A DNA stretch of 49,021 nucleotides, taken from Moorena sp. SS36440bin_2 (GTDB lineage Bacteria; Cyanobacteriota; Cyanobacteriia; Cyanobacteriales; Coleofasciculaceae). Positions 17,447 through 47,921 of this stretch are shown piece after piece (position 1 is the first letter of the stretch; every line of letters begins with the position of its first letter). Where the stretch lies: contig WTKN01000337.1 of assembly GCA_011524395.1 (NCBI GenBank), positions 1 through 49,021 of the forward strand, read 5' to 3'. Position numbers and translations under genes: made by a program. The notes beneath the pieces are model-generated. The model ran no database searches and was not told where the DNA came from. It saw only the letters and a list, made by a program, of their open reading frames with translations.

Positions 17447-18279
17447 ATACCACTTATTCAGAAGCGGTGAAAACAGCCCAAACCTATTATGATGGTGCAG
17501 AAACAGACCGATTGTATGCTACTTTCTGGGGTGGGGAGCATATCACTTATGGGATATACAAGAGTTCCGATGAACCAATCCATGATGCGTCCAAGCGCAC
17601 GGTGGAAACAATTGCCCAAACACTGGAAAATCTAGCTCCCAATTCACGAGTCATCGATCTAGGTGCTGGTTATGGAGGGGCGGCGCGGTATCTGGCCAAA
17701 ACCTACGGTTGTTCTGTCTGCTGTCTCAATTTAAGCGAGCGGCAAAATCAACGGAACCGCCAACTGAACCAAGAGCAGAATTTAGCCCACTTAGTTGAGG
17801 TAACTCAGGGCAGTTTTGAGGATATTCCCTATCCAGACAACTACTTTAATATTGTCTGGTCCCAGGATGCCATTTTACACAGTAGCGATCGCACTCGGGT
17901 CTTTGAAGAAATTAAGAGGGTTTTGCAGCCAGGGGGAGAGTTGATTTTTACTGACCCCATGCAAAAGGAGACTTGTCCACCAGGGCTACTGCAACCAGCC
18001 TTTGACCGTCTGGGTATCAAGGATATGGGTTCCTATCGCTTTTATAGTCAGACAGCCCAGGAATTGGGTTTTGAGGAATTGCACTTTATTGACCTTTCGG
18101 AAAATGTCCCTATCCATTATCGACGATTTGGGAAAGAAGTACGCGATCGCTATCAGGAGGTAGTCAGAATTACTTCCACCGAATTGGCCGATAAAACCTT
18201 AAAAAGCATTGAACCCTGGATCGAGTATTACGAAAAAGGGTACATGCAGTGGGGCATTTTGCATTTTCGCCTGGGGTAA
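17443..18279 (+). CDS. SAM-dependent N-methyltransferase, sarcosine/dimethylglycine type (SDMT-like)
   Basis: From the coupled ATG at 17443 the product has 278 residues. It closely follows the sarcosine/dimethylglycine N-methyltransferases that make glycine betaine: YATFWGGEHITYGIY near the N-terminus, SAM-binding RVIDLGAGYGGAARYLAK, YPDNYFNIVWSQDAILHS, LQPGGELIFTDPMQ and the C-terminal GYMQWGILHFRLG. In salt-tolerant cyanobacteria such an enzyme is usually paired with a glycine/sarcosine methyltransferase, which is not seen here. Coupling to nadB and closeness to a pyridine pathway leave open another amine or pyridine nitrogen as substrate. A longer reading from 17356 is possible but would run deep into nadB. 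Confidence 0.85.
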   Translation: MNTTYSEAVKTAQTYYDGAETDRLYATFWGGEHITYGIYKSSDEPIHDASKRTVETIAQTLENLAPNSRVIDLGAGYGGAARYLAKTYGCSVCCLNLSERQNQRNRQLNQEQNLAHLVEVTQGSFEDIPYPDNYFNIVWSQDAILHSSDRTRVFEEIKRVLQPGGELIFTDPMQKETCPPGLLQPAFDRLGIKDMGSYRFYSQTAQELGFEELHFIDLSENVPIHYRRFGKEVRDRYQEVVRITSTELADKTLKSIEPWIEYYEKGYMQWGILHFRLG

Positions 18280-25974: not shown

Positions 25975-28900
25975 ATGGAAGATTTTCTCAGCTTACCTAA
26001 ACTCTTCAAATTACAAGCACAAAGAACGCCAGAGGAAATTGCGATCGTAGATGGGGCAAATTCAATTACCTATCAAAAATTAGATCGGTTGACAGATAAC
26101 TTAGCGGGTTACCTTCAAAAACAAGGAGTAACTTCAAATCAACCCGTTGGAGTTTTGCTAGAAAAATCTCAAGACTATATTATTGCTTCTCTAGCTATCA
26201 TGAAAGCTGGGGGAGCATTTATGCCCCTAGAATTAAAGTATCCCGATGCTTTGCTTGCCAAAATGGTAGCAGATGCTAAACCTAGTTTAATTATTACCAA
26301 GAGCCAATATTCCTCAAGAATAAATAGTGAACTTTCTCTACAAAGTTTACCTATAGATCGAGAAAATAACTGGAAATTACCACTAAAACAAGACCAAAAC
26401 TTACCATCAATAAACCCTCAAGATATCGCTAATATAATCTACACATCAGGAAGTACAGGAGAACCAAAAGGCATAATATTAACTCATCAGGCAATTATTG
26501 CTGGGGAATTGAGGCGAGAGCAAGTAAGTCTCAGTAAATCAGGATATCCTATAGCCTATGTATTATTTCAGTGGGAAATATACAGACCTTGGATTAAAGG
26601 TTCAACCACATACATTATCCCTGACGAAATAATTTATGATCACCAGCTATTTTTAGATTTCATATATCAAAATGAAATCAAGGAAATTACCATATCACCT
26701 TCCTTAATACAAAGTATATTTAATACAGTTAAAGTTGATTTTATTATCTCAAAATTATCAGGTTTGGAAGTTATTTGGGTAACCGGAGAAGCACTAACAA
26801 AACAACTAAAATCTAAATTGATAGATAGACTACCATCTACTCGTTTACTAAATTATTATGGAATAAATGAATGCTTTACTATTGCTATTGATAACCTGCG
26901 AGAAATCGAAAATTTACCATCAGGATTCTGTGCTGTTGGGATTCCTTTTGAGGACGATGAAATAATTTTATTAGATGAGAATGGGCAGCAAGTTTATCCA
27001 GGAAACGAAGGGGAAATGTATATCCGTAGTCCCTGTATGTTTCGAGAATATTTGAATAAACCCAAGCTGACTGCTGATAGTTTTGTTGACATTAACGGTT
27101 ATCGCTTTTTTAGAACAGGAGATTTAGCAGCTATTTTACCCAACGGCAAACTAGAAATTAGGGGTCGTTGTAATTATATGGTCAATCTGCGGGGATATAA
27201 CGTATCCTTAGCTGGAATTGAAAACACCTTATTAGAACATCCGGAAATAAAAAGCTGTGTAGTTATTATTCAAGGAAAAGAAGAAGCAGAAAAGAAACTG
27301 ATAGCCTATTTCGTCCCTCAGAAACAAAGCACTGAACCCCAGCAGATTAGGGAGCTAAAATTAAGGTTACGTCATCATTTACAAGACCATTTACCTGCTC
27401 ACATGATTCCATCGGTATTTGTGGTAATCGATAAAATTCCCATGACACCGATGGGTAAGTTGGATCGTCGCCAACTACCAAGTATAGACCATTCTCGCCC
27501 AGAGTTGGCAGTACCTTTAGTCAAATCCCAATCGGATACAGAGAAACGTATTGCTCAGATTTGGCAAGACGTACTTCAGTTAGAGGAAGTAGGAATTAAT
27601 GATAACTTCTTCGATTTAGGTGGTAATTCTTTACTGCTGATCCGGGTTCACAAAAACCTGAGCAAAATCTTGGCAATACATCTACCTGTAACCACACTGT
27701 TTGAACACCCAACTATTGCTACCCTGGCTCAATATTTGGACCAAGAACAGGTAGGAACAACAGCCGTTAAGCGCTACGAAAAAAGAAAGAAATTCATCCA
27801 GCATGGCTCGGATATAGCCATAGTTGGTATGTCTTGTCGGTTTCCTGGGGCAAACAATACCGATGCTTTCTGGAAAAATTTACGAGATGGGGTGGAATCA
27901 ATTTCCTTCTTTAGCGATCGCGAAATTGAGCTAGAAGATACCAACTGGATTGAACACCCCAATTATGTGAAAGCTAGTCCTATCTTGCCAGATATTGACC
28001 TATTTGATGCTGAGTTCTTCGGCTATAGCGATAAAGAAGCTGAACTAATGGACCCCCAACATCGGCTTTTCCTGGAATGTGCTTGGGAAGCACTGGAAAT
28101 TTCTGGTTATAATCCTGGAAATTATCCAGGTTCGGTGGGAGTTTATGGGGGTTCGAGTCCCAGCACCTACCTAATTAACAATATATCTCATAGCTTAGGC
28201 TCTTCTCGGACAAGTCCTTTGCTTACCCATTGTCTATTTAGAGGGACTAAAGATGTGCATACCGACCTAGGCAATGGTGGAGATTACTTACCCATGCGGG
28301 TCTCCTACAAATTGAACCTAAAAGGGCCGAGTGTTAATGTTCAAACTGCCTGTTCCACTTCACTAGTTGCCGTTCACTTAGCTTGTCAGAGTTTACGCAG
28401 TGGTGAATCTGACTTAGCACTAGCTGGAGGGGTTTCGATCTTCGTTCCTCAAAAGACTGGTTATTTATACCAAGAAGCCATGATGTTGTCTCCCGATGGT
28501 CACTGTCGTGCTTTTGATGCTGAAGGTCAAGGAACGTTATTTGGTAGTGGAGTTGGCATAGTTGTCTTGAAGCGATTAGAGGAAGCGATCGCTGATGGAG
28601 ACCATGTATATGCCACCATCAAAGGGTCAGCAATTAATAATGATGGGGCAGTTAAAGTTAGCTACACAGCTCCTAGCATAGAAGGACAGATAGCAGCCAT
28701 TTCCGACGCACTGGCTATGGCTAACATAGATCCTAGGACGGTTAGTTATGTGGAAACCCATGGAACTGGGACACCCCTGGGAGATCCAATTGAGATTGCA
28801 GCACTGACAAAAGCGTTTCGACAAAGTACGAACAGCCAGGACAATAATTTTTGCGCGATTGGATCGGTAAAAACCAATATTGGGCATCTCGATGTCACCG

Positions 28901-31900
28901 CAGGGATAGCAGGTCTAATTAAAACAGTGCTGGCACTGCATAACAAAGCCATTCCGCCAAGCTTGCACTTTAAAGAACCCAATCCCAACATAGATTTCCC
29001 CAATAGTCCCTTTTACGTTAATACAGCCCTCACCCCATGGGAACCAAAGGTCACCCCTCTCCGTGCTGGAGTAAGTTCCTTTGGTATGGGTGGAACCAAT
29101 GCCCATGTTGTTCTAGAGGAAGCCCCGAAACAAGTTGAAAGTGGATCCCCCCTCCTTAATAAGGGGGGCAACAGCGAAGCCTCCCATGGCTTCCCCCTTG
29201 CGAAGGGGGACGGGAGGGGGATCGAAAAAAGTAAGTCAAAAGTCAAACGTGAACGTTCTGTGCATATTTTGACTCTATCAGGGCAAACAGAACAAGCTGT
29301 GGCAGAGTCGGTACAGAATTATATAACTTATCTGGAGTCCGATCCAAAGGCGGAGATTGCCGATATCTGTTTTACTGCCAATGGTGGACGTCAGCATTTT
29401 AACCATCGTTTGGCTGTTATTGCTGGCTCCACTCAAGACCTTCTGGAGCAGTTGCAAAGGTTTGGAAAGCCTGTTGATATCAACGATAGTTCCGAACCCC
29501 CAACAATTCACTCCCTCAAAGCAGACTCTACCAAGCAGATTGCCTTTGTCTTTACCGGACAAGGTTCTCAGTATATTGGTATGGGTCGTCAACTCTACGA
29601 AACTCAACCCACTTTCCGAAAAAATTTAGACGAATGCGATCGCATCCTCCGTTCCTACTTAGATATTCCCTTGTTGGAAGTTCTCTACCCCGATTTAGAT
29701 AACAATAAATCGGAAACAGAACCTGACTCATCCATTAACCAAACAAGCTATACCCAACCTGCCATCTTTGCTATTGAATATGCCCTGGCCGAGTTGTGGA
29801 AATCCTGGGGTATCGAACCGGATGTAGTAATGGGTCATAGCATTGGGGAGTATGTGGCGGCTTGTGTTGCTGGGGTTTTTAGCCTAGAAGACGGACTGAA
29901 ACTAATTGCCCAACGGGGTAGGTTGATGCAATCCTTACCCCAAGATGGAGAAATGCTAGCGTTGTTAGCTTCAGTTGCAGAAGCAGCAGAAGCCATTAAA
30001 CCCTATGGCGGGGATGTCTCTCTGGCTGCGATTAATGGACCCCAGAGTGTGGTAATTTCGGGAAAAAGAGCCGCGATTAACACAATTGAGCGCAATCTTG
30101 CCGCAAAGGGAGTCAAAACCAAGAAATTAACTGTTTCCCATGCTTTCCACTCTCCTTTGATGGAACCGATATTGGCAGAATTTGACCAGGTGGTGGCACA
30201 GGTGCGGTTTAATCTACCACAGTTAAAACTAATCAGCAATGTCACGGGAGAACTAGCCACAGAAGAAATAACCACTAGCAAATATTGGTGCGATCATCTC
30301 CGGCAGCCTGTGCAATTTATGGCTAGTATGTCAACCATTGCACAGCTTGGGATAGATGTATTGGTAGAGATTGGAGCCAAACCAATTTTATTAGGAATGG
30401 GTCGTCAGTGTCTCCCCGAACATCAAGGATTATGGTTACCTAGTCTGCGTCCTGGACAAGAAGATTGGCAACAACTATTAACCAGTGTGGCAGAACTATA
30501 TTTCCATGGTGTTTCCATAAATTGGCTCGGTTTTGACCAAGACTTTGCTCGTCATCGCATTCCCTTACCCACTTATCCTTTTCAACGGCAACGTTATTGG
30601 GTGAGTCCAGAGGATAGTTTAATGGGAATAACTACCCCTTCAACATCCTCTAGAGCAATCCCACCAAAAAATATAGGTAAAAAGCCGGATATTGCTGACT
30701 GGTTTTATATTCCATCTTGGAAACGGTCTATTCCCCCCGCTTATCAACCAGGTGAAAAGCTGCTTGAGTCTGACACTCTAGTATTTATCGATGAGTGCGG
30801 ACTCGGAGAAGAACTAGCAGAAAAACTGGAAATACAGGGCAGTGACGTTGTAAGGGTGAGTCCCGGTTCGGAGTTTGCTAAGCAAAGCGATCGCTTCTAC
30901 ACCATTAATCCCACCCAAGCTGATGACTACCATACCCTACTCCAAGAACTGAAACAACGGAATAAAAACCCCAGTAGCATTATTCATCTGTGGAGTGTCA
31001 CCCCAAATAACCACACAGAATTAGGAATAGAATCCTTTGAAGGGTCTCAGGATTTGGGTTTATACAGCCTGATATTTCTTGTCCAAGCCCTTGAAAAACT
31101 GAATTTTATCAATTCACTCCAACTTACCGTTGTATCAAACAACCTGCAGGAAGTGAGCGGAGAGGAAGTCTTATCTCCAGAGAAAGCAACCCTGTTGGCA
31201 GCCTGTAACGTTATTGGACAAGAATATCCCAATATAAACTGTCGCAGTATCGATCTTGTTCTTCCCCCATCCCAAAAGCAAAAGCAGGAAAAACTTGTAA
31301 CCCAACTACTGGGGGAAATAACAGCACACTCAGAAGATTTAACTATCGCTTACCGGGGTAAACATCGCTGGGTGCAAAAGTTTGAACCTGTGGGATTAGA
31401 AACACCTGGAACAGGGACATTACCTCTGACAAAAGAAGGGGTTTATCTGATTATTGGTGGACTAGGGGCGATTGGTCTGTCCCTGGGGTTACACTTGGCA
31501 AAAACTGTACGGGCCAAACTCATCTTAACGGGACGTTCCCTATTTCCTGCCAGGGATGATTGGTCTCAATGGCTAGCCACCCACGATGCAGAGGATCGGA
31601 TTAGTCGCAAAATTCAGAAATTGCAGGCTATGGAGGCTATGGGAGCGGAGGTGATGGTACTCAATGCTGATGTAGCCGATGGACAACAAATGGAAGAAGC
31701 GATCGCACAAGCAGAGGGTCGCTTTGGTAACATCAATGGAGTCATCCACAGTGTTATGTTTACTGGAGACAAAGCATTGTGTTCCATCAAGGAAATAACT
31801 AAAACTGATATTTGGCAGCACTTTCAAGGAAAAGTACAGGGAACGATCGTCTTATCAAAGGTTTTGCAGAACAAAAACCTTGACTTTTGTATCTTAATGT

Positions 31901-33453
31901 CCTCCATCGCATCAGTGCTGGGGGGTTTGGGGGACGTTGCTTACTCAGCGGCCAATCTGTTTATGGATGTTTTCGTTCACCAGCAGAACCGGGTTAATTC
32001 GGTTCCTTGGTTGAGTGTAAACTGGGAGACTTGGGAATTCCCAAAACAAGATCGAAATTATGAGATTGCAGCAGGGCTGGCTGAATTTGCCATAACTCCA
32101 GAAGAGGGTATCCAAGCCTTTGAAAAGGTTTTATCCACTCCAGAACTCGATCAAATTATTGTATCTAGTGGAGATTTACAAGCTCGTATCGATCGATGGG
32201 TCAAACTTAAATCTGTAAAAGAACGAAATAATTCCCACAATCAAGTATCATATACACCAGTTACCTTCCGCAAGCAATTGGAGACAGTTCCTGTGGGAGA
32301 GCGTCAGGGATTATTGGTTACTCACATCCGCGCGCAGGTAGCCAAGGTACTCGGAATTTCTCCTGAGCGAATAACATTAGAGCAAAAACTCATAGACTTA
32401 GGATTAGATTCTTTGATGTCTATTGAGTTGAGAAATGCTCTCCAATTGAGTCTGGGTTTGTCTGTGCCTTCTACTGTAGTCTTTGACTATCCCACACCGG
32501 AAGCGTTGACTAGTTATTTGGCTCAGGAAGTTCTTGCCTTTGAGGAATCAAAAAGTTTAACCGATACCTCCATCAAACAAGGTATAGTTGAGGATGACTC
32601 TTACCGTTCTACTTTAGTATCAATTCAGCCAAATGGTTCAAAACCTCCTCTGTTCTTTGTCCCCGGAGTCTTGGGCAATGTTTTCGATATCTATCCCTTG
32701 GCACAACACCTAGATTCAGAGCAACCTTTATATGGCTTGCGAGCCTTTGGTTTAGATGACGGGGAAAAGCCATTAACCCGGATGGAAGACATAGCAGCCC
32801 ACCACATCCAAGCCTTACAAGCTGTTCAGCCTAAAGGGCCATATTTTTTGGGCGGTCATTCAGCAGGAGGAAAGGTGGTTTTTGAGATAGCTCAACAGTT
32901 ACAAAATCAGGGACAGGAGGTGGCTTTACTTGCCATTATGGATGGTTTAGGGACAAATCTTCAAAAATATCAAGATTTTGCTGATTGGGACAATACTAAA
33001 CTCATCAACGATATAAGTAGTTTTTATCAAGGTTCTTTGGGAGAAGCGGTCAACGTTAATCCTGAAACACTTCAATCTATTGGAGAGGAGCAACAGTTAA
33101 ATTATCTTCTGGAAAGATTGAGCATAGCTGGTTTTAAATTAAGCCAAGATGAACTAAAACGTATTTTTCAAGTTTACAAAGCTAATGTTCAAGCTGATGT
33201 TGACTATATACCACAAGAGAGTTACCCAACTTCAATTACTTTCTTCCGAGCTATGGAAACAGAAGTCTTTGAGGCTACCCTCGGTGAAACAACAATACTG
33301 GAAGACCCAACTTGGGGGTGGGGTAAGGTTTCTGCTGAACCTGTGACAATTTATGAGATTCCTGGCAACCATTTCACGATGATGGGAGAACCACATGTTC
33401 GAGTTCTAGCCCAAACCCTTAGGACTTGTCTGGAAAGCAACTGTAATCTCTAA
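25975..33453 (+). CDS. Single-module hybrid NRPS-PKS (A-PCP-KS-AT-KR-ACP-TE)
   Basis: A 2492-residue assembly-line enzyme. Adenylation spans about 1-505 (core IYTSGSTGEPKG, NYYGINE, RTGDLA, PMGKLDRRQ). The carrier site is DLGGNS (Ser552). KS spans about 613-1040 with ACSTS (Cys793), His929 and His971. AT spans about 1190-1500 with GHSIGEY (Ser1289) and HAFHSP, which indicates malonyl-CoA. KR spans about 1820-2010 with GGLGAIG and Ser1977/Tyr1990/Asn1994. The ACP site is LGLDSL (Ser2146). The thioesterase has GGHSAGG (Ser2296) and a C-terminal GNHFT. There is no condensation, DH or ER domain. The A4 region reads YVLFQWEIYRPW, so the Asp that normally binds the alpha-amino group appears to be missing. 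Expected product: a two-carbon-extended beta-hydroxy acid built on a non-amino acid starter. Confidence 0.92.
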   Translation: MEDFLSLPKLFKLQAQRTPEEIAIVDGANSITYQKLDRLTDNLAGYLQKQGVTSNQPVGVLLEKSQDYIIASLAIMKAGGAFMPLELKYPDALLAKMVADAKPSLIITKSQYSSRINSELSLQSLPIDRENNWKLPLKQDQNLPSINPQDIANIIYTSGSTGEPKGIILTHQAIIAGELRREQVSLSKSGYPIAYVLFQWEIYRPWIKGSTTYIIPDEIIYDHQLFLDFIYQNEIKEITISPSLIQSIFNTVKVDFIISKLSGLEVIWVTGEALTKQLKSKLIDRLPSTRLLNYYGINECFTIAIDNLREIENLPSGFCAVGIPFEDDEIILLDENGQQVYPGNEGEMYIRSPCMFREYLNKPKLTADSFVDINGYRFFRTGDLAAILPNGKLEIRGRCNYMVNLRGYNVSLAGIENTLLEHPEIKSCVVIIQGKEEAEKKLIAYFVPQKQSTEPQQIRELKLRLRHHLQDHLPAHMIPSVFVVIDKIPMTPMGKLDRRQLPSIDHSRPELAVPLVKSQSDTEKRIAQIWQDVLQLEEVGINDNFFDLGGNSLLLIRVHKNLSKILAIHLPVTTLFEHPTIATLAQYLDQEQVGTTAVKRYEKRKKFIQHGSDIAIVGMSCRFPGANNTDAFWKNLRDGVESISFFSDREIELEDTNWIEHPNYVKASPILPDIDLFDAEFFGYSDKEAELMDPQHRLFLECAWEALEISGYNPGNYPGSVGVYGGSSPSTYLINNISHSLGSSRTSPLLTHCLFRGTKDVHTDLGNGGDYLPMRVSYKLNLKGPSVNVQTACSTSLVAVHLACQSLRSGESDLALAGGVSIFVPQKTGYLYQEAMMLSPDGHCRAFDAEGQGTLFGSGVGIVVLKRLEEAIADGDHVYATIKGSAINNDGAVKVSYTAPSIEGQIAAISDALAMANIDPRTVSYVETHGTGTPLGDPIEIAALTKAFRQSTNSQDNNFCAIGSVKTNIGHLDVTAGIAGLIKTVLALHNKAIPPSLHFKEPNPNIDFPNSPFYVNTALTPWEPKVTPLRAGVSSFGMGGTNAHVVLEEAPKQVESGSPLLNKGGNSEASHGFPLAKGDGRGIEKSKSKVKRERSVHILTLSGQTEQAVAESVQNYITYLESDPKAEIADICFTANGGRQHFNHRLAVIAGSTQDLLEQLQRFGKPVDINDSSEPPTIHSLKADSTKQIAFVFTGQGSQYIGMGRQLYETQPTFRKNLDECDRILRSYLDIPLLEVLYPDLDNNKSETEPDSSINQTSYTQPAIFAIEYALAELWKSWGIEPDVVMGHSIGEYVAACVAGVFSLEDGLKLIAQRGRLMQSLPQDGEMLALLASVAEAAEAIKPYGGDVSLAAINGPQSVVISGKRAAINTIERNLAAKGVKTKKLTVSHAFHSPLMEPILAEFDQVVAQVRFNLPQLKLISNVTGELATEEITTSKYWCDHLRQPVQFMASMSTIAQLGIDVLVEIGAKPILLGMGRQCLPEHQGLWLPSLRPGQEDWQQLLTSVAELYFHGVSINWLGFDQDFARHRIPLPTYPFQRQRYWVSPEDSLMGITTPSTSSRAIPPKNIGKKPDIADWFYIPSWKRSIPPAYQPGEKLLESDTLVFIDECGLGEELAEKLEIQGSDVVRVSPGSEFAKQSDRFYTINPTQADDYHTLLQELKQRNKNPSSIIHLWSVTPNNHTELGIESFEGSQDLGLYSLIFLVQALEKLNFINSLQLTVVSNNLQEVSGEEVLSPEKATLLAACNVIGQEYPNINCRSIDLVLPPSQKQKQEKLVTQLLGEITAHSEDLTIAYRGKHRWVQKFEPVGLETPGTGTLPLTKEGVYLIIGGLGAIGLSLGLHLAKTVRAKLILTGRSLFPARDDWSQWLATHDAEDRISRKIQKLQAMEAMGAEVMVLNADVADGQQMEEAIAQAEGRFGNINGVIHSVMFTGDKALCSIKEITKTDIWQHFQGKVQGTIVLSKVLQNKNLDFCILMSSIASVLGGLGDVAYSAANLFMDVFVHQQNRVNSVPWLSVNWETWEFPKQDRNYEIAAGLAEFAITPEEGIQAFEKVLSTPELDQIIVSSGDLQARIDRWVKLKSVKERNNSHNQVSYTPVTFRKQLETVPVGERQGLLVTHIRAQVAKVLGISPERITLEQKLIDLGLDSLMSIELRNALQLSLGLSVPSTVVFDYPTPEALTSYLAQEVLAFEESKSLTDTSIKQGIVEDDSYRSTLVSIQPNGSKPPLFFVPGVLGNVFDIYPLAQHLDSEQPLYGLRAFGLDDGEKPLTRMEDIAAHHIQALQAVQPKGPYFLGGHSAGGKVVFEIAQQLQNQGQEVALLAIMDGLGTNLQKYQDFADWDNTKLINDISSFYQGSLGEAVNVNPETLQSIGEEQQLNYLLERLSIAGFKLSQDELKRIFQVYKANVQADVDYIPQESYPTSITFFRAMETEVFEATLGETTILEDPTWGWGKVSAEPVTIYEIPGNHFTMMGEPHVRVLAQTLRTCLESNCNL
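29143..29224. repeat. Palindromic interspersed repeat inserted in frame in the PKS
   Basis: GGATCCCCCCTCCTTAATAA followed by GGGGGG, and CCCCCTTGCGAAGGGGG, form two hairpins. The outer ends (GATCCCCCC and GGGGGATC) are also inverted. The module stays open and encodes about 28 residues (SPLLNKGGN, PLAKGDGRG) in the KS-AT linker. Such G/C-run modules are typical spacer repeats of filamentous cyanobacteria. Confidence 0.75.
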
Positions 33454-33513
33454 ACTAATTGCACTATCAACAATATCTGATTAAGTATAAAATTACCGAC
33501 AAATAGAACAACC

Positions 33514-34260
33514 ATGAGAAAAATATTAGCTTTATGGGCAACAGTTCGCTCAACTTCCACCGCCTTTGAAAATATGATGCGCCAAAGAGGTGATTTTCTG
33601 GCTTTTCATGAACCTTTTGGCTTATCTTACTACAACTCCCCAGAGCGTCGCGATACTAATCGTTATCCAGATATAGAACTCAATCCTGAATATAATTACC
33701 AAACAACCTTGCGAAAACTACAACAGGAAGCAGATTCCCAGGCGGTTTTTATCAAGGATATGGCCTATTTTATGTTCCACTTAGCTGATCGAGAATTTTT
33801 GTCTATATTTGAAAGTACTTTTATCGTACGTCATCCCGCTAAAATGCTGCCATCCCTTTACGACAAATGGCCTGATTTTACTTTAGAAGAAACCGGTTAT
33901 GCCCAACTCTACAAACTCTTTGAAATGGCTAAGGAATTCAGTGGAAAAACACCAGTAGTAATTCACTCAGACGATTTGGTAAAAAAGCCCGAAGCAACAG
34001 TTAAAGCTTACTGCGATGCTGTTGGTATACCGTTTCTTAAAGAAGCCCTAGAATGGGAACCAAAATTTCGCCCTGAACTTACCAATTGGGATGGTGGAAC
34101 TTGGGTAACTAACGTCATGTCTAGTAGTGGCTTTAAGGAACAAAAAAGAGATAATTATGTGGCAGTAGAAGATAATGAACACTTACAAAATGCTTATGAA
34201 TTTTGTTTGCCATATTACGAAAAGCTTTACGAACATAAGCTTCCTATTGCTGAAAGTTAA
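33514..34260 (+). CDS. Sulfotransferase-family protein
   Basis: The 248-residue protein begins with a P-loop-like phosphosulfate-binding stretch (LWATVRSTSTAFENMM) followed by a helix. It later has STFIVRHPAKMLPSLYDKW, which corresponds to the 3'-phosphate-binding Arg/Ser region of PAPS-dependent sulfotransferases. The C-terminal region carries the DDLVKKPEATVKAYCDAVGIPF element common in this family. It follows the megasynthase by 60 bases in the same direction, so it probably acts on the PKS product or a precursor. Members of this family also occur as poorly characterised sulfotransferase-like proteins, so the reaction is not certain. Confidence 0.72.
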   Translation: MRKILALWATVRSTSTAFENMMRQRGDFLAFHEPFGLSYYNSPERRDTNRYPDIELNPEYNYQTTLRKLQQEADSQAVFIKDMAYFMFHLADREFLSIFESTFIVRHPAKMLPSLYDKWPDFTLEETGYAQLYKLFEMAKEFSGKTPVVIHSDDLVKKPEATVKAYCDAVGIPFLKEALEWEPKFRPELTNWDGGTWVTNVMSSSGFKEQKRDNYVAVEDNEHLQNAYEFCLPYYEKLYEHKLPIAES

Positions 34261-39237: not shown

Positions 39238-39337
39238 AGTCACCCTGTAATAAGTAATAAGTCAAGAAGAGGCTCTATCTAATTGATATAATTTAGAGTG
39301 ATCGCTAATTCCCACAACTTTAAAGTAGAGGTCAACA

Positions 39338-40126: not shown

Positions 40127-40133
40127 GGTTTTG

Positions 40134-40877
40134 ATGGTAACTTCTTTAACCACTCCCGATGCCACCTTAGCAGCAATTGAAGCCGCCTTACCCATTGACC
40201 CTCAGCCCTATACTATTGGCGATCGTCCCACCGGTTTGATCGTTGTGGATGTGCTCAATGGCTTTTGCACTGTTGGTTTTGGTCCTTTGGCTCCAACAGA
40301 ACCAAATCAGCAAATAGCCACCATGGTATCAGAAAGCGATCGCCTAGCCAAAGCTTTCACAGCCAAAGGTTGGCCAGTCTTAGCTTTCCTAGATACCCAC
40401 GAACCAGGCAAACCAGAACCTCCCTATCCTCCTCATTGTGAAAAAGGGTCTGGGGAAGAAAAGCTCGTTCCTGAACTGGAATGGCTAGAAACTCATCCCC
40501 ACGCCACCTTAATTAAAAAAGACTGCATCAATGGTTTTATCGGTTCCATTGATGTAGATACTGGCAACAATAGTTTAATTAGCTGGATAAACCAGCACAA
40601 CCTAGAAGCCTTAGTAGTTGTTGGCATCTGCACAGATATTTGTGTAATGGACTTCGTGGTTACTATGCTATCAGCACGCAATCATGATATGGTACCAACC
40701 TTAAAAGATATTGCCGTCTATACTGAAGGTTGTTCAACCTTCGACCTCTCGGCAGAGATGGCAGCCCAGCAGGGTTTGCCAAAGACGGCAATTCATCCCC
40801 AGGAAATCGCTCATCATGTTGGTTTATACACCATGGCAGAGCGTGGAGCGTTCATTGCTTCTACAATTTTGATGTGA
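40134..40877 (+). CDS. Nicotinamidase (plant NIC-type isochorismatase-fold hydrolase)
   Basis: From the ATG at 40134, behind a strong AGGAGG, the product has 247 residues. It deamidates nicotinamide to nicotinic acid. It follows the plant NIC-type nicotinamidase pattern closely: IVVDVLNGFCTVGFG with the catalytic Asp, AFLDTHEPGKPEPPYPPHC with metal-site residues, TLIKKDCINGFIGSI with the Lys, and VVVGICTDICVMDFV with the nucleophile Cys. The C-terminal HHVGLYTMAERGA is also shared. Its presence next to nadC and the megasynthase makes free nicotinate a candidate building block. A TTG three bases upstream is not needed as start. Confidence 0.9.
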   Translation: MVTSLTTPDATLAAIEAALPIDPQPYTIGDRPTGLIVVDVLNGFCTVGFGPLAPTEPNQQIATMVSESDRLAKAFTAKGWPVLAFLDTHEPGKPEPPYPPHCEKGSGEEKLVPELEWLETHPHATLIKKDCINGFIGSIDVDTGNNSLISWINQHNLEALVVVGICTDICVMDFVVTMLSARNHDMVPTLKDIAVYTEGCSTFDLSAEMAAQQGLPKTAIHPQEIAHHVGLYTMAERGAFIASTILM

Positions 40878-40927
40878 CCAATCCCAAGTTTAAAACCAAG
40901 TAAAATTTACATTTTTAATAAAAAAAA

Positions 40928-41731
40928 ATGGAATCTCGACTAACAATTGTCACAGGTGCAAGCGGCGCTCTGGGTAACAGTTTTGTTGAACACTTTATAC
41001 AGCAAGAAAATACCACTTGCGTAGCCATTTCTAGATCCCCTATGGAAACGGATGCCCTGCATTGCAAATTCGATCTTCTCGATAGCAAAGCCGCCGAACA
41101 AGCCATCATTAATCTCGACCTTTCGGAAGTTTCTGATGTGATCCTTATCCATGGCGTAGGCAAATTCAAATATGAAATCGAGACAGAAACCACCGAGGAA
41201 GACTGGGATGAAAAGGGAATTGATGATGAAATATTCTCATCAAACTACCATACCTTTGTCAACGTAGCCCAGCCACTTGTCGAAAAACTTAACCAAGAGC
41301 ATCAATGCAATCGCCAGACTACCCTTGCTCTTTGTGGTTTCGGTTCTGTTACCGATAAATATAAGATCCCTTTCTGGCGCTCTTATACTTACGCCAAAGA
41401 TACCTTACGGAGCTATATCCAAGACCTAGCTCAGTCAGAAGACTGGCAAGGACTAATCAGGGGACGGTTTATCAATGTGAGTACTACAGACACAGGTAAT
41501 GAAAACAAATTGCGACCCAATGCAACAGCTGAAGAGAAAAAATATTGGCTCAAGCCAGAAAAAATCGTCCAGCAATCTCTAGAATCTCTGGAGTCCTTGC
41601 AGCCTCTGTGGCAGGAAATAGATGTCTATGAACCCATGCCAGGATTCGAGCCAGACGACTATTACAGCAATTACGATAAAATTCAAGAAAAATGGCAACG
41701 ACAGATGGGAGTGCCATCTTCATTAACTTAA
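40928..41731 (+). CDS. Short-chain dehydrogenase/reductase
   Basis: The 267-residue protein starts with the Rossmann motif TIVTGASGALGNSF. It has the SDR active-site tyrosine and lysine in YTYAK (about residues 156-160) with a serine in CGFGSVTD upstream. The cofactor-binding Asp after strand 3 is in KFDLLDSKAAEQA. It is probably an NAD(P)-dependent alcohol/ketone oxidoreductase. It lies between the nicotinamidase and nadC, all in one direction with spacings of 50 and 135 bases, so it probably takes part in the same pathway. The substrate cannot be read from sequence. Confidence 0.82.
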   Translation: MESRLTIVTGASGALGNSFVEHFIQQENTTCVAISRSPMETDALHCKFDLLDSKAAEQAIINLDLSEVSDVILIHGVGKFKYEIETETTEEDWDEKGIDDEIFSSNYHTFVNVAQPLVEKLNQEHQCNRQTTLALCGFGSVTDKYKIPFWRSYTYAKDTLRSYIQDLAQSEDWQGLIRGRFINVSTTDTGNENKLRPNATAEEKKYWLKPEKIVQQSLESLESLQPLWQEIDVYEPMPGFEPDDYYSNYDKIQEKWQRQMGVPSSLT

Positions 41732-41802: not shown

Positions 41803-41866
41803 CATTTGGAGCTAGGAATTAGAAATAGTAGTCTAATTGCATAGGAAATTAAATTGGTTAAGAGTT

Positions 41867-42724
41867 ATGGCAATATTACCTCCCTCAATAGTGTTAGACT
41901 CTCTACTGCATCAATGGCTCAAAGAAGATATTGGTAGAGGCGATCGCACCACCCAAGCTTTGTTCGCTCAAGAAGTTAGTTCTGGAAACGGACAATGGAT
42001 CGCTAAGCAAGCAGGTACAATTGCGGGACTGCCAATTGCAGCGCGGGTGTTCTATTTATTAAATGAAAAGGTCAGCTTCATCCCCCTAGTAGCAGAGGGA
42101 GAAAGTTGTCAGCCAAGCCAAGCCATTGCTCGTTTTCACGGACCATTTGATGCTTTGTTGATGGGAGAGAGGGTAGCTTTAAATCTAACTATGAGTCTGA
42201 GTGGCATTGCTACCCTAACCCGTCAGTATGCCGAAAAAATTGCTGATTTGCCTGCCCAGTTGGTGGATACTCGCAAAACTACTCCAGGCTTAAGACTATT
42301 GGAAAAATATGCAACTCAAGTGGGAGGAGCTATTAACCATCGCATGGGCTTGGATGATGCGGTGATGATTAAGGATAATCATATTAAAGCGGCTGGGGGA
42401 ATTGGGGAAGCGATCGCTCGAATTCGTAAGACTATTCCCTATCCTATGACCATAGAAGTAGAGACAACAACTCTCGCGGAAGTAGAAGAGGCGATCGCCC
42501 ACAATGCCGATATTATCATGTTGGATAATATGCCAGTTGAGCAGATGGAGGTAGCAGTTAAGCTAATTCGTGTAAGCAACAACAAGATTAAAATTGAGGC
42601 ATCGGGTAATGTGACCTTAAAGACCATTCGTGCAGTGGCAGAAACAGGAGTAGATTACATCTCCAGCAGCGCTCCTATTACTCGCTCTAGTTGGTTGGAT
42701 TTGAGTATGAGATTGGGGAGTTAA
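41867..42724 (+). CDS. nadC: Nicotinate-nucleotide pyrophosphorylase (quinolinate phosphoribosyltransferase) NadC
   Basis: From the ATG at 41867 the product has 285 residues, normal for NadC. It converts quinolinate and PRPP to nicotinate mononucleotide. Characteristic stretches are LKEDIGRGDRTTQALF, ERVALNLTMSLSGIAT, LVDTRKTTPGLRLLEKYA, GGAINHRMGLDDAVMIKDNHI and the C-terminal TGVDYISSSAPITRS. Its last 303 bases recur at 47578-47880 with about eight differences. Together with nadA, nadB and the nicotinamidase it completes a nicotinate supply route in this window. Whether it is the only nadC in the genome is unknown. Confidence 0.94.
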   Translation: MAILPPSIVLDSLLHQWLKEDIGRGDRTTQALFAQEVSSGNGQWIAKQAGTIAGLPIAARVFYLLNEKVSFIPLVAEGESCQPSQAIARFHGPFDALLMGERVALNLTMSLSGIATLTRQYAEKIADLPAQLVDTRKTTPGLRLLEKYATQVGGAINHRMGLDDAVMIKDNHIKAAGGIGEAIARIRKTIPYPMTIEVETTTLAEVEEAIAHNADIIMLDNMPVEQMEVAVKLIRVSNNKIKIEASGNVTLKTIRAVAETGVDYISSSAPITRSSWLDLSMRLGS

Positions 42725-42844: not shown

Positions 42845-43906
42845 ATGACAGAGTTAATGAATGCTGTGATTCTTACCGGATTTGGAGGACCAGAAAAACT
42901 GGTCTATACCCAAGTCCCTAAACCAGTACCGAAAAAGGGAGAAGTGTTAATTAAAGTTGGAGCTTGTTCTGTTAATAATACAGATATAAATACTCGAACA
43001 GGTTGGTATGCTGCAGAGAATAATTTTCAAGCTATCCTGCAAGATACCAAGGAAAATGACCTCAATAGTTCCGCTTGCTGGACACAACATGGGACTGAGT
43101 TCCCTCGAATTCAAGGCGCTGACATTGTTGGTCAAGTTGTCGAAATGGGTTCCGATGTAGAACCGCAACTCATTCATCAACGAGTTATGGTTGACAGTTG
43201 GATTCGTGATGAAACTTTAGATGACTATCAATATGTTGGAAGTGAATTAGATGGGGGATTTGCCGAATATGCCCTCATTCCAGCGACCAATGTTTATCCG
43301 ATTAAGTCTCCACTTTCCGATCTTGAACTCGCTACCTTTCCCTGTTCCTATTCCACAGCAGAAAATATGGTAACCAAGGGAAGAATTTCAGCAGCAGACA
43401 CGGTATTGATTATGGGGGCTTCCGGTGGCGTAGGGAGTGCCTTGATTCAATTAAGCAAAATTAGAGGAGCCAAAGTTATTGCCATTGTTGGCGCGAATAA
43501 AGAGCATTTTGCAGAGGAGTTAGGTGCTGATTATGTCTATCGACGAGATCAGCAATTAGCCTCTAATCTAGAGCCACATCTAATTACTGTTGCTCTAGAT
43601 GTGGTGGGAGGAGGTTATTTTAATTTGATGATTAAAGCGCTTCAACCCAGAGGAAGATATGTTTCTTGTGGTGCAATTGGAAATCCAATGGTTCCTTTAG
43701 ATTTGCGGGATTTGATTTACAAGGATTTAGAGATGATTGGAGCAACGCGGCTTGAACCTGAGGTGTTCCAGCAATTGGTTGGATATCTTGAAAAAGATCT
43801 TTTAAAACCTTTGATTGCTAAAGTTTTTAAACTTTCTGCAATTAAGGAGGCTCAGCAATTTTTTCAGACTAAAACATTTTTCGGTAAAGTGGTTATAACC
43901 CCTTAG
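42845..43906 (+). CDS. Zinc-independent MDR alcohol dehydrogenase/quinone oxidoreductase-like protein
   Basis: This 353-residue protein follows the medium-chain reductase plan. The N-terminal GroES-like domain contains KPVPKKGEVLIKVGACSVNN and QGADIVGQVVEMGSDV. The nucleotide-binding motif is LIMGASGGVGSALIQL, then KVIAIVGANKEHFAEELGADYVY. The catalytic zinc ligands of classical alcohol dehydrogenases are not in place, so it resembles quinone oxidoreductase or trans-acting enoyl reductases. It is the first gene of the block bounded by the nadC repeat. It could reduce an enone or enoyl intermediate of the pathway. Confidence 0.85.
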   Translation: MTELMNAVILTGFGGPEKLVYTQVPKPVPKKGEVLIKVGACSVNNTDINTRTGWYAAENNFQAILQDTKENDLNSSACWTQHGTEFPRIQGADIVGQVVEMGSDVEPQLIHQRVMVDSWIRDETLDDYQYVGSELDGGFAEYALIPATNVYPIKSPLSDLELATFPCSYSTAENMVTKGRISAADTVLIMGASGGVGSALIQLSKIRGAKVIAIVGANKEHFAEELGADYVYRRDQQLASNLEPHLITVALDVVGGGYFNLMIKALQPRGRYVSCGAIGNPMVPLDLRDLIYKDLEMIGATRLEPEVFQQLVGYLEKDLLKPLIAKVFKLSAIKEAQQFFQTKTFFGKVVITP

Positions 43907-43959
43907 TAAATAACTGATTGTATAGTTAAGATATAAAAGAGGTAAATTTATATCATTAA

Positions 43960-45366
43960 ATGAATATCACTTTAAAACTTTTAGATTGCACTCGCTCCAA
44001 ACACAACCTTACATTACTTTATCAATATGACGAAATAATTTTTACAACTACTCTCTGGTATTCAACAGTTGACTTTCATCAGCTTGAGTCTGAGTATAGT
44101 CAAGAATACATGGAAAAAATTTATTTCCATATTTTGTTATTTCATGGCTTAAAAATATTAAGTTTAAAACCGACTCATCTTGATTTAGGAAAATATGGCA
44201 ACTATTGGACAAATAATCTAGAAAAACTCTGGGAAGTAAGTGTTGAACAATGTTTAGGGCAGTGGCGGTATGAAACTGGTAATTTAGATTATCAAGGAGC
44301 CGAAATCATTCATCAAGATGTTACCACCATGAAAACAGAAGCGGTAACTCTAGTTCCAGGAGGGACTCCCTTGCTTCTTTGTAATGGTGGAGGTAAAGAT
44401 AGTCTACTGATGGCTCGTTTGTTGGACGATAATAGTGTTCCTTTTGATAGTTTCAGTATTAACCTACACACCCATGCTAATCCTGAAGAGTTGTTTGAAA
44501 TGCACGAACAACATCTCTATAAACTCCAAAATCCGCCACCCAAGATTCATCGTCAGTATATTATCGAGTCATTCCTCAATTCTCCAGCAGCTAAACTTCA
44601 TGGGGTAGAAGGTGTAGAGGTTTCTGAGATTAGAAACTATGAAGACTTACCCCTCGCTTATGGAATGTTTGGCATTCTTCCCATAATCCTTCAGGAGAAA
44701 TATACCCAACTTTGTTTTGGAAATGAAAAAAGTGCTGACAGCGAACAGGTTAAGGTGGGAAATCAGGTTATTAATCACGCCTGGTGTAAAAGTACGGAAT
44801 GCGAAATTATTTATGAAGAATATATTCAACAAGAATTTATCAGTAATCTGGCTATTTTTAGTTTGCTAAAACCCATGTCAGACCCCTTAGTTTATCGGCT
44901 GTTATCTCAAAAAGTTAGAGAAGAAGATCTCAAATTAGTTTACTCATGTAACACCAATCCTCCTTGGTGTAAATCCTGTCCTAAATGTGCCTATGTTTAT
45001 TTATCTTATATGGCTTCTCTTACTCCAGAGCAGGCAAATGAGGTTCAACACCTCTTAGGCAATGAAAATCTTTTTGATCGCCCAGATTTACAGCTTTATT
45101 ATCGACAGTTGATGGGGCTAGAATCTCATAATGCTTTTGAATGTGTGGGGGAAATCGAAGAAACAAAACTTGCTTTAGAAAAATGTGTTGAACGGGGATT
45201 TACTGGAGAGGCGATTAACGGCTATTCTAAAAACGCCCGTCTAGATAGGAGCGAATATCAAAAGTTGTGGGTAAAATACCACCAACTGGATTTATCCTAT
45301 CAGCGTCTGCCGCCAAAACTGATGGAAATTTTGATTCAAGAATGTCAAAAATTGGAGAATAAATAA
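43960..45366 (+). CDS. MurL-like PP-loop enzyme (adenylating epimerase family)
   Basis: This 468-residue protein resembles MurL, the enzyme that epimerises the terminal L-Glu of UDP-MurNAc-L-Ala-L-Glu using ATP. The PP-loop is LLLCNGGGKDSLLMARLL (about 140-157). It is followed by CFGNEKSADSEQ and by a C-terminal metal-type cysteine cluster WCKSCPKCAYVYLSY. The MurL role in cell-wall D-Glu supply is rare, and cyanobacteria normally use glutamate racemase. In a biosynthetic setting, a carboxylate-adenylating, stereo-inverting or tailoring function is more likely. I am fairly sure of the family but not of the substrate. Confidence 0.7.
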   Translation: MNITLKLLDCTRSKHNLTLLYQYDEIIFTTTLWYSTVDFHQLESEYSQEYMEKIYFHILLFHGLKILSLKPTHLDLGKYGNYWTNNLEKLWEVSVEQCLGQWRYETGNLDYQGAEIIHQDVTTMKTEAVTLVPGGTPLLLCNGGGKDSLLMARLLDDNSVPFDSFSINLHTHANPEELFEMHEQHLYKLQNPPPKIHRQYIIESFLNSPAAKLHGVEGVEVSEIRNYEDLPLAYGMFGILPIILQEKYTQLCFGNEKSADSEQVKVGNQVINHAWCKSTECEIIYEEYIQQEFISNLAIFSLLKPMSDPLVYRLLSQKVREEDLKLVYSCNTNPPWCKSCPKCAYVYLSYMASLTPEQANEVQHLLGNENLFDRPDLQLYYRQLMGLESHNAFECVGEIEETKLALEKCVERGFTGEAINGYSKNARLDRSEYQKLWVKYHQLDLSYQRLPPKLMEILIQECQKLENK

Positions 45367-45427
45367 AATTTTCTACTGGTTGTAAATCTTACACTCTATT
45401 GCCACAAAAAATAATCAGGAGGTCTTG

Positions 45428-46549
45428 ATGACAAGCAATGTAATCACAAAAGAGAGCTTTTTAACAGTTGCAGGTAAACGCTTCCACTATATCTGGTTGC
45501 GCCAAAATTGCTTATGTCCCGATTGTCGGCATCCAACTTCTTTCCAGGGGTTATTCGATCTCAGCGATCACCCCTCACCCCCAGAACCTTTATCTGTAGA
45601 GGAGAAGGATGGAGCGATCGAGATTACTTGGAAAGAAGAACCTCCTCATCGGAGTATATTCCCTGTCTCCTGGCTGCTGAATCGTGCTTACGATCCCTCG
45701 CCTCAGCAGCCCGAAGAGCAGAAAATTCTATGGGATCGGGCTTGCTTAGATACTCACCCACCCAAAAAGTACGATATTCATTCCTGTAGTCAAGATATCT
45801 GGATGAGTCAGCTTTTCCGATTGGGTTTTACCGTACTTAAGAATATAGCTGCTGACGATTTAGATACTTTCATCTCATCCATTGGACCGATTCACCAAAC
45901 AGAATACGGACGATTCACGGAATTAAAGGCAATTCCAAACAGCACAGATCTAAGTCAATCACCTACAGGTCATCGGTTGCGACTTCACACTGATCGATGC
46001 CACGTCCACGAGCCGCGTCTAGTACAGGTTCTATATTGTGTGGATAACAATGCTTCTGGCGGCGAATCGTTACTTGTTGATGGCTTTCGTATTGCTAAAG
46101 ATTTTCACCAAAATCATCCAGACTACTTTCAGATTTTGGCAAAAACCCCCTTGCAGTTTCAGGATTTTGACCCAATTCGAGGATATTTTTTCTCCCGCAA
46201 AACCCCGATTCTAGAACTAGACTGGGAGGGTAAAGTTGCTGGAATCTACTTTAGTGGCAAGACCTCTACTTGGAATCTACCTTTCGATGAGCTAGAAGCT
46301 TTTTATGAAGCCTATTCAGCTTTTTGTAGTTACTTAAAAAATCCAATTTACGAATACCGCTTCCGCCTTGAACCTGGAGACTGTTTGCTAGCGCAGAACT
46401 TTAGGATAATTCACGGACGAACAGCTTACGATACCCTCTCGGGACAGAGACATCTTAGATGGGCTACTATTGCTTGGGATTACATCAGCGCCAGGCATAA
46501 CTTTGAGATGGTTAAACACCTGTACCTCATGGAAAATTCATCAATTTAA
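45428..46549 (+). CDS. Gamma-butyrobetaine hydroxylase/TmpA-like 2OG-Fe(II) dioxygenase 2
   Basis: This 373-residue paralogue of the 34385-35476 enzyme starts at an ATG behind AGGAGG. The N-terminal cysteine cluster is WLRQNCLCPDCR. The catalytic domain keeps the iron ligands (LRLHTDRCHVH and FRIIHGRTAYD) and GGESLLVDGFRIA. The two differ in the segment following the H-x-D motif (LTYLNVGR against RCHVHEPR), which lines the substrate pocket, so they probably act on different positions or substrates. It follows the MurL-like gene and precedes the PhyH-family gene within the repeat-bounded block. Confidence 0.85.
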   Translation: MTSNVITKESFLTVAGKRFHYIWLRQNCLCPDCRHPTSFQGLFDLSDHPSPPEPLSVEEKDGAIEITWKEEPPHRSIFPVSWLLNRAYDPSPQQPEEQKILWDRACLDTHPPKKYDIHSCSQDIWMSQLFRLGFTVLKNIAADDLDTFISSIGPIHQTEYGRFTELKAIPNSTDLSQSPTGHRLRLHTDRCHVHEPRLVQVLYCVDNNASGGESLLVDGFRIAKDFHQNHPDYFQILAKTPLQFQDFDPIRGYFFSRKTPILELDWEGKVAGIYFSGKTSTWNLPFDELEAFYEAYSAFCSYLKNPIYEYRFRLEPGDCLLAQNFRIIHGRTAYDTLSGQRHLRWATIAWDYISARHNFEMVKHLYLMENSSI

Positions 46550-46654
46550 TGACCGGTGGTTGACTATAAAGTTGGAGTAACTTACAATATTTTTTTGTCG
46601 TACTTACAGTTACAGCAACAGACACTTTCATAAGTCTATAGAGGAAAGGAAAAC

Positions 46655-47578
46655 ATGATCAATAACAGCAACGTGGAAACAAACAAGGAAAAGATTTGCA
46701 CAACCCGTCCCCTGTCAAAGGAGCAAATTGCACAATACCATGATGAAGGATTTCTGATTGTCCCTAGTTTCTTTGACCCTGAAGAAGTTGCACCGATAAA
46801 GCAGGCTTTGCAACCCGATTCTGAGTTGAGTGGAATCTGGACACAATATGTAGATAATCATGGTACAACATGGATGGATAGCCATGGTCACTTGAATCAA
46901 CAACTAGCTTGGATAGAGTTAGGAGACTCTCTACTCAGTGTTATTCCTCGTACAGTTCGGATGGTCAATGCAGTCGAGGTACTTTTAGGAGGATTAGAGT
47001 CTTATCATTGGCACTCAAAAATAACAGTAAAAAATCCACATACCCAAGCCTGGATTGAATGGCATCAGGGCTATGGAGGCTGGTATAACGATGGTTGTTT
47101 ATACCCAGATTTTGTAACTTCCACGGTGGCTATTGACAAGAATACTAAAGAAAATGGATGTCTTCAGGTCATCAAAAAATCCCACTTAATGGGTCGCCTG
47201 GATCATAAAGTTTTTGATGGTGGAGGTGGGGCTCTACGTATAGATTCAGAATGGATGGACACAATTATAGACAGACTAGGTATTGTCTACTGTGAGCTGG
47301 AACCTGGTGATGCACTATTTATACATGCAAATACGATACATTGCTCAGGAGATAACCAAACCGATTTACCCCGAACAACTCTAACTTGTCACTACAATGC
47401 ACGATCAAACGAGCCATTCTGTTTGGAGCGAGTTCCACACCGTCGTTATCGTTTCCTGGAGCGCCTACCAGATACAAGCATTATTGAAAAGAACTACAGT
47501 TCGGTCCTGAATAGTCAGGTTTTCATGAAAAAAACATTTGATAAAATTATCACTTATGGGATGGAACCTGAAAAATGA
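46655..47578 (+). CDS. PhyH-family 2OG-Fe enzyme with HXG site (candidate halogenase)
   Basis: The 307-residue protein has the phytanoyl-CoA dioxygenase fold: RPLSKEQIAQYHDEGFLIV at the N-terminus, then WIEWHQGYGGWYNDGC, STVAIDKNTKENGCLQVIK, the distal iron ligand in HANTIHCSGDN (His229) and the 2OG-binding Arg in LPRTTLTCHYN. In close PhyH relatives the first motif reads WHQDYGYW; here Asp is replaced by Gly139 (codon GGC). Loss of that carboxylate, leaving a His-x-Gly...His site, is the mark of Fe/2OG halogenases such as SyrB2-, WelO5- and BesD-type enzymes, where halide takes the open position. A damaged hydroxylase is the alternative. The stop overlaps the ATG of a nadC fragment by four bases. 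Confidence 0.82.
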   Translation: MINNSNVETNKEKICTTRPLSKEQIAQYHDEGFLIVPSFFDPEEVAPIKQALQPDSELSGIWTQYVDNHGTTWMDSHGHLNQQLAWIELGDSLLSVIPRTVRMVNAVEVLLGGLESYHWHSKITVKNPHTQAWIEWHQGYGGWYNDGCLYPDFVTSTVAIDKNTKENGCLQVIKKSHLMGRLDHKVFDGGGGALRIDSEWMDTIIDRLGIVYCELEPGDALFIHANTIHCSGDNQTDLPRTTLTCHYNARSNEPFCLERVPHRRYRFLERLPDTSIIEKNYSSVLNSQVFMKKTFDKIITYGMEPEK

Positions 47579-47880
47579 TTCGTAAGACTATTCCCTATCC
47601 TATGACCATAGAAGTAGAGACAACAACTCTCGCGGAAGTAGAAGAGGCGATCGCCCACAATGCCGATATTATCATGTTGGATAATATGCCAGTTGAGCAG
47701 ATGGAGGTAGCAGTTAAGCTAATTCGTGTAAGCAACAACAACATTAAAATTGAGGCATCAGGTAATGTTACCTTAAAGACAATTCGTGCAGTGGCAGAAA
47801 CAGGAGTAGATTACATCTCCAGTAGTGCTCCCATTACTCGCTCTAGTTGGTTGGATTTGAGTATGAGATTGGGGAGTTGA
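47575..47880 (+). pseudogene. nadC C-terminal fragment
   Basis: This frame encodes only the last 101 residues of NadC (from IRKTIPYPMTIE), with one residue change from the intact copy (NNN for NNK). It lacks the N-terminal domain and the PRPP/quinolinate-binding residues of the first two thirds, so it cannot be an active enzyme. Its ATG overlaps the PhyH-family stop (ATGA) by chance of the junction, so it could be translated. It marks the right boundary of the duplicated nadC end (47578-47893). Confidence 0.9.
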
Positions 47881-47921
47881 GATCAGTTGAGATCAACAGT
47901 AGTTCAACGGCACATACCAAT

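Follow-up and report, generated by a model that had tools for sequence, protein, structure and literature searches.

The locus described here raises the question of whether a PhyH-family Fe/2OG enzyme in which the iron-binding His-x-Asp (HXD) has become His-x-Gly (HXG) acts as a halogenase, or whether it still oxidizes its substrate or has ceased to be a catalyst. HXG or HXA is said to mark Fe/2OG halogenases (PMC12871659) and has been used as a filter for them (PMC11186838). A third paper describes how the missing carboxylate leaves room for a halide on the iron of SyrB2, and reports that prolyl 4-hydroxylase with this Asp changed to Gly or Ala is dead and non-halogenating (PMC2767507). The gene in question lies in a 49,021-nucleotide stretch of a Moorena genome (contig WTKN01000337.1), referred to below as the window, and a preliminary description had proposed that it encodes a halogenase. 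Judging from sequence comparisons, we put the probability at roughly 0.6 that its product represents an add-on, free-standing aliphatic halogenase lineage, apart from the SyrB2/HctB-like and HalD groups.

An intact PhyH protein with an altered iron motif

The gene and the codons of its predicted iron and 2OG ligands are as follows.
46655..47578, + strand: PhyH-family Fe/2OG enzyme with HXG, candidate halogenase, 307 aa (ORF and Pfam profile)
47063..47071, + strand: codons of His137-Gln138-Gly139, HXG replacing HXD, with Gly139 encoded by GGC at 47069-47071 (sequence)
47339..47341, + strand: codon of the distal iron ligand His229, in HANTIHCSG (sequence; same residue in 36 of 36 clade rows)
47372..47374, + strand: codon of Arg240, the 2OG-binding position, in LPRTT (sequence; same residue in 36 of 36 clade rows)

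The open reading frame runs intact from an ATG start, and its product scores 94.7 bits against PhyH PF05721 (Pfam cut-off 22). The iron motif, EWHQGYGGWYNDG, reads WHQGYGGW where HXD relatives read WHQDYGYW, as the preliminary description had stated; the distal His and the 2OG-binding Arg, which it had called intact, are indeed present as His229 and Arg240, so that the three residue features of an Fe/2OG halogenase (HXG, distal His and Arg) occur together in this protein. The Gly codon GGC is, again as described, a single base away from GAC. In another Moorena genome (G418), the encoded protein is identical at 305 of 307 residues; the single TGA flagged there is the natural stop of the gene, and the presence of Gly139 in this genome too argues against a sequencing error in the window. 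Since HXG genes of the clade defined below also use GGT, GGA and GGG besides GGC, error or chance can be ruled out as the source of the motif.

An AF2 model of the protein (mean pLDDT 87.6, pTM 0.89) has proline hydroxylase H11, EctD and leucine hydroxylase GriE as its best PDB matches, with SyrB2 at rank 50 (E 5.3e-14). The model, with Fe/2OG enzymes as its top matches, thus predicts a double-stranded beta-helix fold. An alignment-profile search of the PDB gave a similar order, with GriE at 4e-41 followed by H11 and EctD, and with CytC3 (4e-15) and SyrB2 (3e-12) lower down. EctD, GriE and H11, the nearest solved relatives by both profile and fold, are hydroxylases that, unlike the window protein, retain the Asp in the alignments. 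ORFs longer than 345 aa, and several close rows of the 90 listed, were excluded from the structure alignments (A3, 74 rows; A4, 71 rows).

Repeated exchange of the aspartate within one clade

Relatives were gathered by a GTDB scan (the best 80 of at least 528 loci encoding a relative), by searches of cyanobacterial genomes (10 of 386 genomes at 1e-10; 26 of 388 at 1e-60) and from Planktothrix plasmid records. All rows were collected with window-centred queries and identical cores were counted once, so the residue counts given here differ from natural frequencies. The 30 matches at 1e-60 in 388 genomes, the window included, carry Gly (12), Ala (1), Leu (2) or Asp (15) at position 139, and at least one Gly/Ala copy occurs in 11 of the 388. 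A 52-row tree places 36 distinct rows in one clade (support 99/91), with Gly in 15, Ala in 2, Leu in 2 and Asp in 17; Asp is thus replaced in 19 of 36 rows, and in 17 of these 19 by Gly or Ala. All but one of the 36 are cyanobacterial, the exception being L022, from a Thiotrichaceae bin. Outside the clade, an 85-row tree shows Asp in all 63 rows. Since the nearest outside rows do so, Asp is likely to be the ancestral state on these trees, and together with the PhyH profile score they support the proposed origin from HXD enzymes of the PhyH family.

Two subclades lack Asp entirely: that of the window, with eight rows (six Gly, two Leu; support 99/97, and 97/97 in a second tree), and a Planktothrix-type subclade of seven rows, plasmid genes included (five Gly, two Ala). 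Elsewhere the residue differs between close neighbours, as in the sister pair L007 (HXG) and L023 (HXD; support 100/100) and in L124 (HXG), which is sister to the HXD pair L024/L034 (100/99). The window subclade also contains a conserved HXL branch (L116, L127 and L021, the last on the same contig as G590:C180), which reads WHQL[YF]GGVYTAG. Given the mixed clade, the L007/L023 pair and the HXL branch, Asp has, on the reconstructed trees, been exchanged more than once. With the motif columns removed from the alignment, a minimum of four switches between Asp and non-Asp is needed, a count that does not separate loss of Asp from its regain; under the same treatment, the grouping of all non-Asp rows in one clade is rejected (p-AU 0.000109). 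This value serves as a guide only, because the tested group was defined with a tree already in view and the rows include several long ones. Variation at the Asp position is also found in the more distant SyrB2/HctB-like PhyH group (Ala, Val, Tyr, Asn, Glu). In the HXL branch, L116 and L021 have also lost Trp143, and the halogenase reading is therefore not meant to cover that branch.

Eight core residues, Tyr117, Lys122, His137, Gly218, Asp219, His229, Asn234 and Arg240, are shared without exception by the 17 Gly/Ala rows and the 17 Asp rows of the clade. NG86 estimates of dN/dS stay below 0.35 in every PhyH pair that yields a value: 0.22 for window and G590 (dS 0.87), 0.33 for a Planktothrix HXG pair, 0.07 for an HXA pair (dS 1.1), 0.28 for an HXL pair, 0.15 and 0.06 for HXD pairs, and 0.18 for window and G418, a weak value since just five bases differ. 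The pairs that gave no value were the HXG genes of Planktothrix and G445 (saturated) and the two copies in G652 (identical). Numerous columns, 141, 172, 228, 236 and 246 among them, have a different composition in Asp and Gly rows; with three independent pairs only, none of the second-shell residues could be tied to the Asp/Gly switch.

Comparison with known Fe/2OG enzymes

To the preliminary description the protein appeared distinct from the described halogenase groups, which holds for the SyrB2/HctB-like and HalD groups by both scores and tree; membership in the SyrB2-type or HalD families is ruled out on the same grounds. Against the SyrB2-type profile TIGR01762 the window protein reaches 24.4 bits (cut-off 226.3), a cut-off that is passed in one of 291 genomes, by L146. 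In a 39-row tree in which L146 stands in for SyrB2, ten TIGR01762-related rows group together (99/98, or 100/98 when the long row L010 is included), separately from the window clade. SyrB2 and CytC3 also have a PhyH fold and have lost the ligand at the same position (WHQA, compared with WHQG in the window); enzymes of this type differ, however, in that the window cassette has no adenylation/carrier pair. None of SyrB2, CytC3 and CurA appeared in a single-sequence PDB search with the window protein at E 1, and WelO5 and AmbO5 are absent among the 60 listed of 64 PDB matches at E 0.01 in the alignment-profile search.

HalD and BesD presumably share with the window protein a free-standing organization and Gly at the ligand position. 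Their profile, PF23169, does not match the window protein at 0.001; a search of the window genome with it gave no match, and the same search likewise matched no control genome. A relative encoded at locus L095 does match PF23169 (1.3e-4, 21.9 bits, below the cut-off of 26). The HalD-like neighbour in L095 was considered as support for halogenation and rejected, because it reads WHYD and is thus an HXD enzyme. The ectoine hydroxylase profile TIGR02408 gives the window protein 57.3 bits, against a cut-off of 336.5. The nucleotide halogenases AdaV, VaNTH and CtNTH and the plant enzyme DAH also have HXG for HXD and act on other substrates in other hosts, a comparison made from the descriptions available; DAH is described as derived from an HXD enzyme through an Asp-to-Gly change (PMC12346261). 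The biotin halogenase BtnX (PDB 9pv1, labelled as a phytanoyl-CoA dioxygenase) gives only a short N-terminal match (E 0.0019), and our literature search returned no paper on it. Publications on the window clade were not found either, as judged by titles and abstract openings, with most subscription journals outside the scope of the search.

Among the TIGR01762-related cyanobacterial proteins L146, L147-L151, L155 and L158, the Asp site is variable, with Val, Ala, Asn and Glu occurring there, and L146 itself, although above the profile cut-off, reads WHQV. The window genome also encodes, at G000:C327 (L154; also L152 and L153), a 470-aa protein with PhyH, ACBP and phosphopantetheine domains and the motif WHQV, a layout that we take to resemble that of HctB; in its tree group, L157 (G468) reads HQY and L156 (G172) HQA.

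A small cassette next to NAD genes

Four co-directional genes at 42845-47578 form a cassette, of which the PhyH gene is the last. The neighbouring genes, labelled by BLAST or profile assignment, are listed below.
17356..18279, + strand: sarcosine/dimethylglycine-type N-methyltransferase (SDMT; 344.5 bits, cut-off 550)
25975..34260, + strand: PKS (A-ACP-KS-AT-KR-ACP-TE) and a separate sulfotransferase (domains; link to the PhyH pathway unproven)
40131..41731, + strand: isochorismatase-fold gene and SDR (in other genera, homologues border the cassette)
41837..42724, + strand: nadC, left border (sole full-length nadC match in the genome)
42845..43906, + strand: MDR-family reductase/alcohol dehydrogenase-like protein (profile)
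43960..45366, + strand: MurL-like enzyme (NCBIfam MurL 93.9 bits, below the cut-off of 700)
45425..46549, + strand: GBBH/TmpA-like TauD-family Fe/2OG hydroxylase (GBBH2), canonical HTD (profile and motif)
47578..47883, + strand: copy of the nadC 3' end (source 42422-42727), right border (298 of 306 bases identical)

The called start of the SDMT gene overlaps nadB, and its true start is probably further in. The copy of the nadC end begins at the final base of the PhyH stop codon. The earlier suggestion that the gene sits inside a natural-product locus thus needs qualifying: a small gene cassette is there, but it is bracketed by the duplicated nadC end and has no carrier gene, the PKS with its carrier domains lying about 13 kb upstream (PKS genes also stand beside some of the relatives). 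Positions 1-47578 of the window are mostly colinear with G418, with gaps, and the right border in G418 consists of copies of isochorismatase/SDR sequence together with a copy of the nadC 3' end. A separate PhyH cluster, L026, also stands beside isochorismatase and nadB homologues; this position and the duplicated ends suggest an insertion hotspot near NAD genes. Between window and G418, the DNA of the PhyH gene differs by 0.5% and that of GBBH2 by 0.8%, as against about 5% for MurL, reductase and nadC, which we read as a sign that the PhyH end of the cassette was exchanged recently. A dedicated supply of quinolinate by the nad genes is unsupported for nadC, this being the sole full-length nadC in the genome. 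Chlorine-dependent ring closure by the reductase is disfavoured, since the reductase also occurs in cassettes that lack PhyH.

At 1e-90, the MurL-like protein is found in 11 of 388 genomes including that of the window, the ten others at 39-94% identity; six further MurL contexts were compared, and a partial match in G460 (86%) was left out. G610, G487, G320 and G441 have the reductase and MurL with isochorismatase and SDR nearby, and no clade PhyH in the stretch seen. The first three include a GBBH at 51-53% identity, in place of which G441 has a 264-aa ORF. An SDMT homologue lies upstream of reductase and MurL in G610, G556, G320 and G441, with one small ORF between, and G487 has an N-methyltransferase a few genes further away. 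The G556 contig ends within GBBH, so that absence of PhyH cannot be read from it, while G487 and G610 carry a clade PhyH on other contigs (HXG and HXL, respectively). G509 has only a distant MurL (39%) and two PhyH-like genes of another kind, one of which reads WHQS. The absence of PhyH from several related cassettes indicates that the PhyH step is dispensable.

Where a clade PhyH does share a cassette with reductase and/or MurL, it reads HXG in five of five genomes (window, G418, G652, G116 and G598) and HXD in none. The G652 cassette combines reductase, MurL and GBBH at 82%, 83% and 81-86% identity with an HXG PhyH at 46%, located before GBBH; in G598 methyltransferase, reductase and sulfotransferase are at 81% and the PhyH, at 48%, reads HSG; in G116 (a Spirulina sp. 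CS-785/01 contig that ends near the cluster) a MurL at 60% adjoins an HXG PhyH. Conservation of HXG in orthologues sharing this neighbourhood, a check named in the preliminary description, is borne out by G418 and by the 46%-identical G652 protein; the clade overall is mixed, with HXD in 17 of 36 rows. HXD in the same context was looked for and is missing from the five pathway-gene cassettes, yet the HXD gene of L026 is found amid much of the gene set of L094, whose PhyH is HXG. An HXD PhyH also lies about 8 kb from a distant MurL (32%) in L034.

Other members occupy different surroundings. L094, and in part L022, has an HXG gene beside flavocytochrome-like, HMGL-like and HpcH-like genes; L132 and L133 have HXG in DUF3326/decarboxylase/CmcI-type methyltransferase clusters, while L023, in the same cluster type, is HXD; and in L025 an HXG member adjoins a Rieske enzyme. 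On a Planktothrix plasmid (NZ_LR882966.1; L012, 12001-14891), an HXG and an HXA PhyH surround an Amdase-like gene behind a PKS and an Fe-ADH, and the same paired arrangement recurs in G445 (L137, 9632-12677), the pair being thus common to two genera.

Halogenation and the competing explanations

As a halogenase, the protein would be a free-standing, non-heme iron enzyme dependent on 2-oxoglutarate and O2, acting on aliphatic carbon and derived from a cyanobacterial PhyH hydroxylase. His137 and His229 would hold the iron and Arg240 the 2OG, with chloride (or bromide) in the site vacated by Asp. By analogy with SyrB2, O2 and 2OG would give rise to a halo-ferryl species; this would take a hydrogen atom from an unactivated carbon and deliver halogen to that carbon in place of OH. 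Such tailoring may be optional within a small pathway that includes the N-methyltransferase, the MDR reductase, the MurL-like enzyme and the GBBH-like hydroxylase, and the substrate, at a guess, is probably a small N-methylated or betaine-like acid. The recurrence of the exchange and its bias towards Gly and Ala make halogenation the likeliest reading; counting against it are the hydroxylases that form the nearest solved folds and profile matches, and the two clade rows with Leu.

A rival reading, which we consider unlikely, though to be taken seriously, is a hydroxylase or other oxidase that works with two His ligands, has a water molecule (or a substrate carboxylate) in the Asp site and binds no halide; the nearest solved folds, being those of hydroxylases, speak for it. 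Human AspH, compared here by description, is also a natural HXG...H Fe/2OG enzyme, and it is a hydroxylase with a tightly held water and without halogenation; in the same sources, FIH with Asp changed to Gly retains some hydroxylation activity, and the water in AspH is reportedly steadied by a second-sphere Asp, a feature that may count against the comparison (PMC10947486, PMC13168262). The HXD protein of L026, in a gene set much like that of the HXG-bearing L094, suggests that the PhyH step may stay oxidative. The predominance of Gly and Ala (17 of 19 non-Asp rows), arisen more than once, is on the other hand what is found in known halogenases.

An iron ligand has nevertheless been lost, and it is conceivable, but rather improbable, that catalysis went with it and that the protein has been retained for a binding or structural role, or is subject to drift. 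The lack of Trp143 in the Leu-branch rows L116 and L021, a Leu-branch cluster in which an AlaDH-like ORF has 182 aa as against 331 in L095 (L139, Okeania sp. SIO3B5) and the missing PhyH in related cassettes would fit such decay. The invariance of the eight core residues in the Gly/Ala rows, dN/dS values well below 1 and the retention of HXG across genera at 46-68% identity all oppose it. It is very improbable, finally, that the enzyme resembles a halogenase but naturally takes some anion other than halide, such as nitrite, azide or a carboxylate of the substrate: going by its title, one cited work reports that an iron halogenase can carry out nitration and azidation, but no assigned neighbour gene points to such an anion.

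Significance of the clade

To our knowledge, closely related natural pairs of hydroxylase and halogenase are few, and such pairs are needed to learn what, beyond loss of the carboxylate, makes an Fe/2OG enzyme halogenate. The clade supplies several apparent switches, namely L007 and L023, L124 versus L024/L034, the HXG/HXA tandem in two genera and the HXL branch. A census of cyanobacterial halogenases used CurA, BarB1, HctB, WelO5 and AmbO5 as queries at 1e-20 (PMC8406957), and the low TIGR01762 score together with the absence of SyrB2, CytC3 and CurA from the PDB search at E 1 suggests that the window clade probably escaped it. Halogenated products may thus be made by clusters for which we found no known compound. 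A broader proposal, which we offer tentatively and hold to be doubtful, is that the clade is a repeated source of halogenases, in which Asp disappeared on three or more occasions (with regain) or on about five, usually in favour of Gly or Ala, that its genes are exchangeable modules transferred among unrelated small-molecule clusters, and that the module in the window decorates an N-methylated, betaine-like metabolite; if true, this would imply a halogenated betaine-like scaffold, absent from the papers found.

Other features of the window

The adenylation domain of the PKS (25975-33453) has linear gramicidin synthetase as its closest PDB relative. At the position that we take to be the usual amino-group-binding Asp235, the alignment appears to place Gln, and the seeming lack of this Asp suggests a starter other than an ordinary alpha-amino acid. 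A separate gene (22758-24488) encodes the C-terminal half of MetH, with its corrinoid-binding and activation domains, and two methyltransferase genes occur in the same stretch. At 38498-40077, a pair of genes (138 aa and 111 aa) is present in two tandem copies, between which the proteins are 41% and 45% identical.
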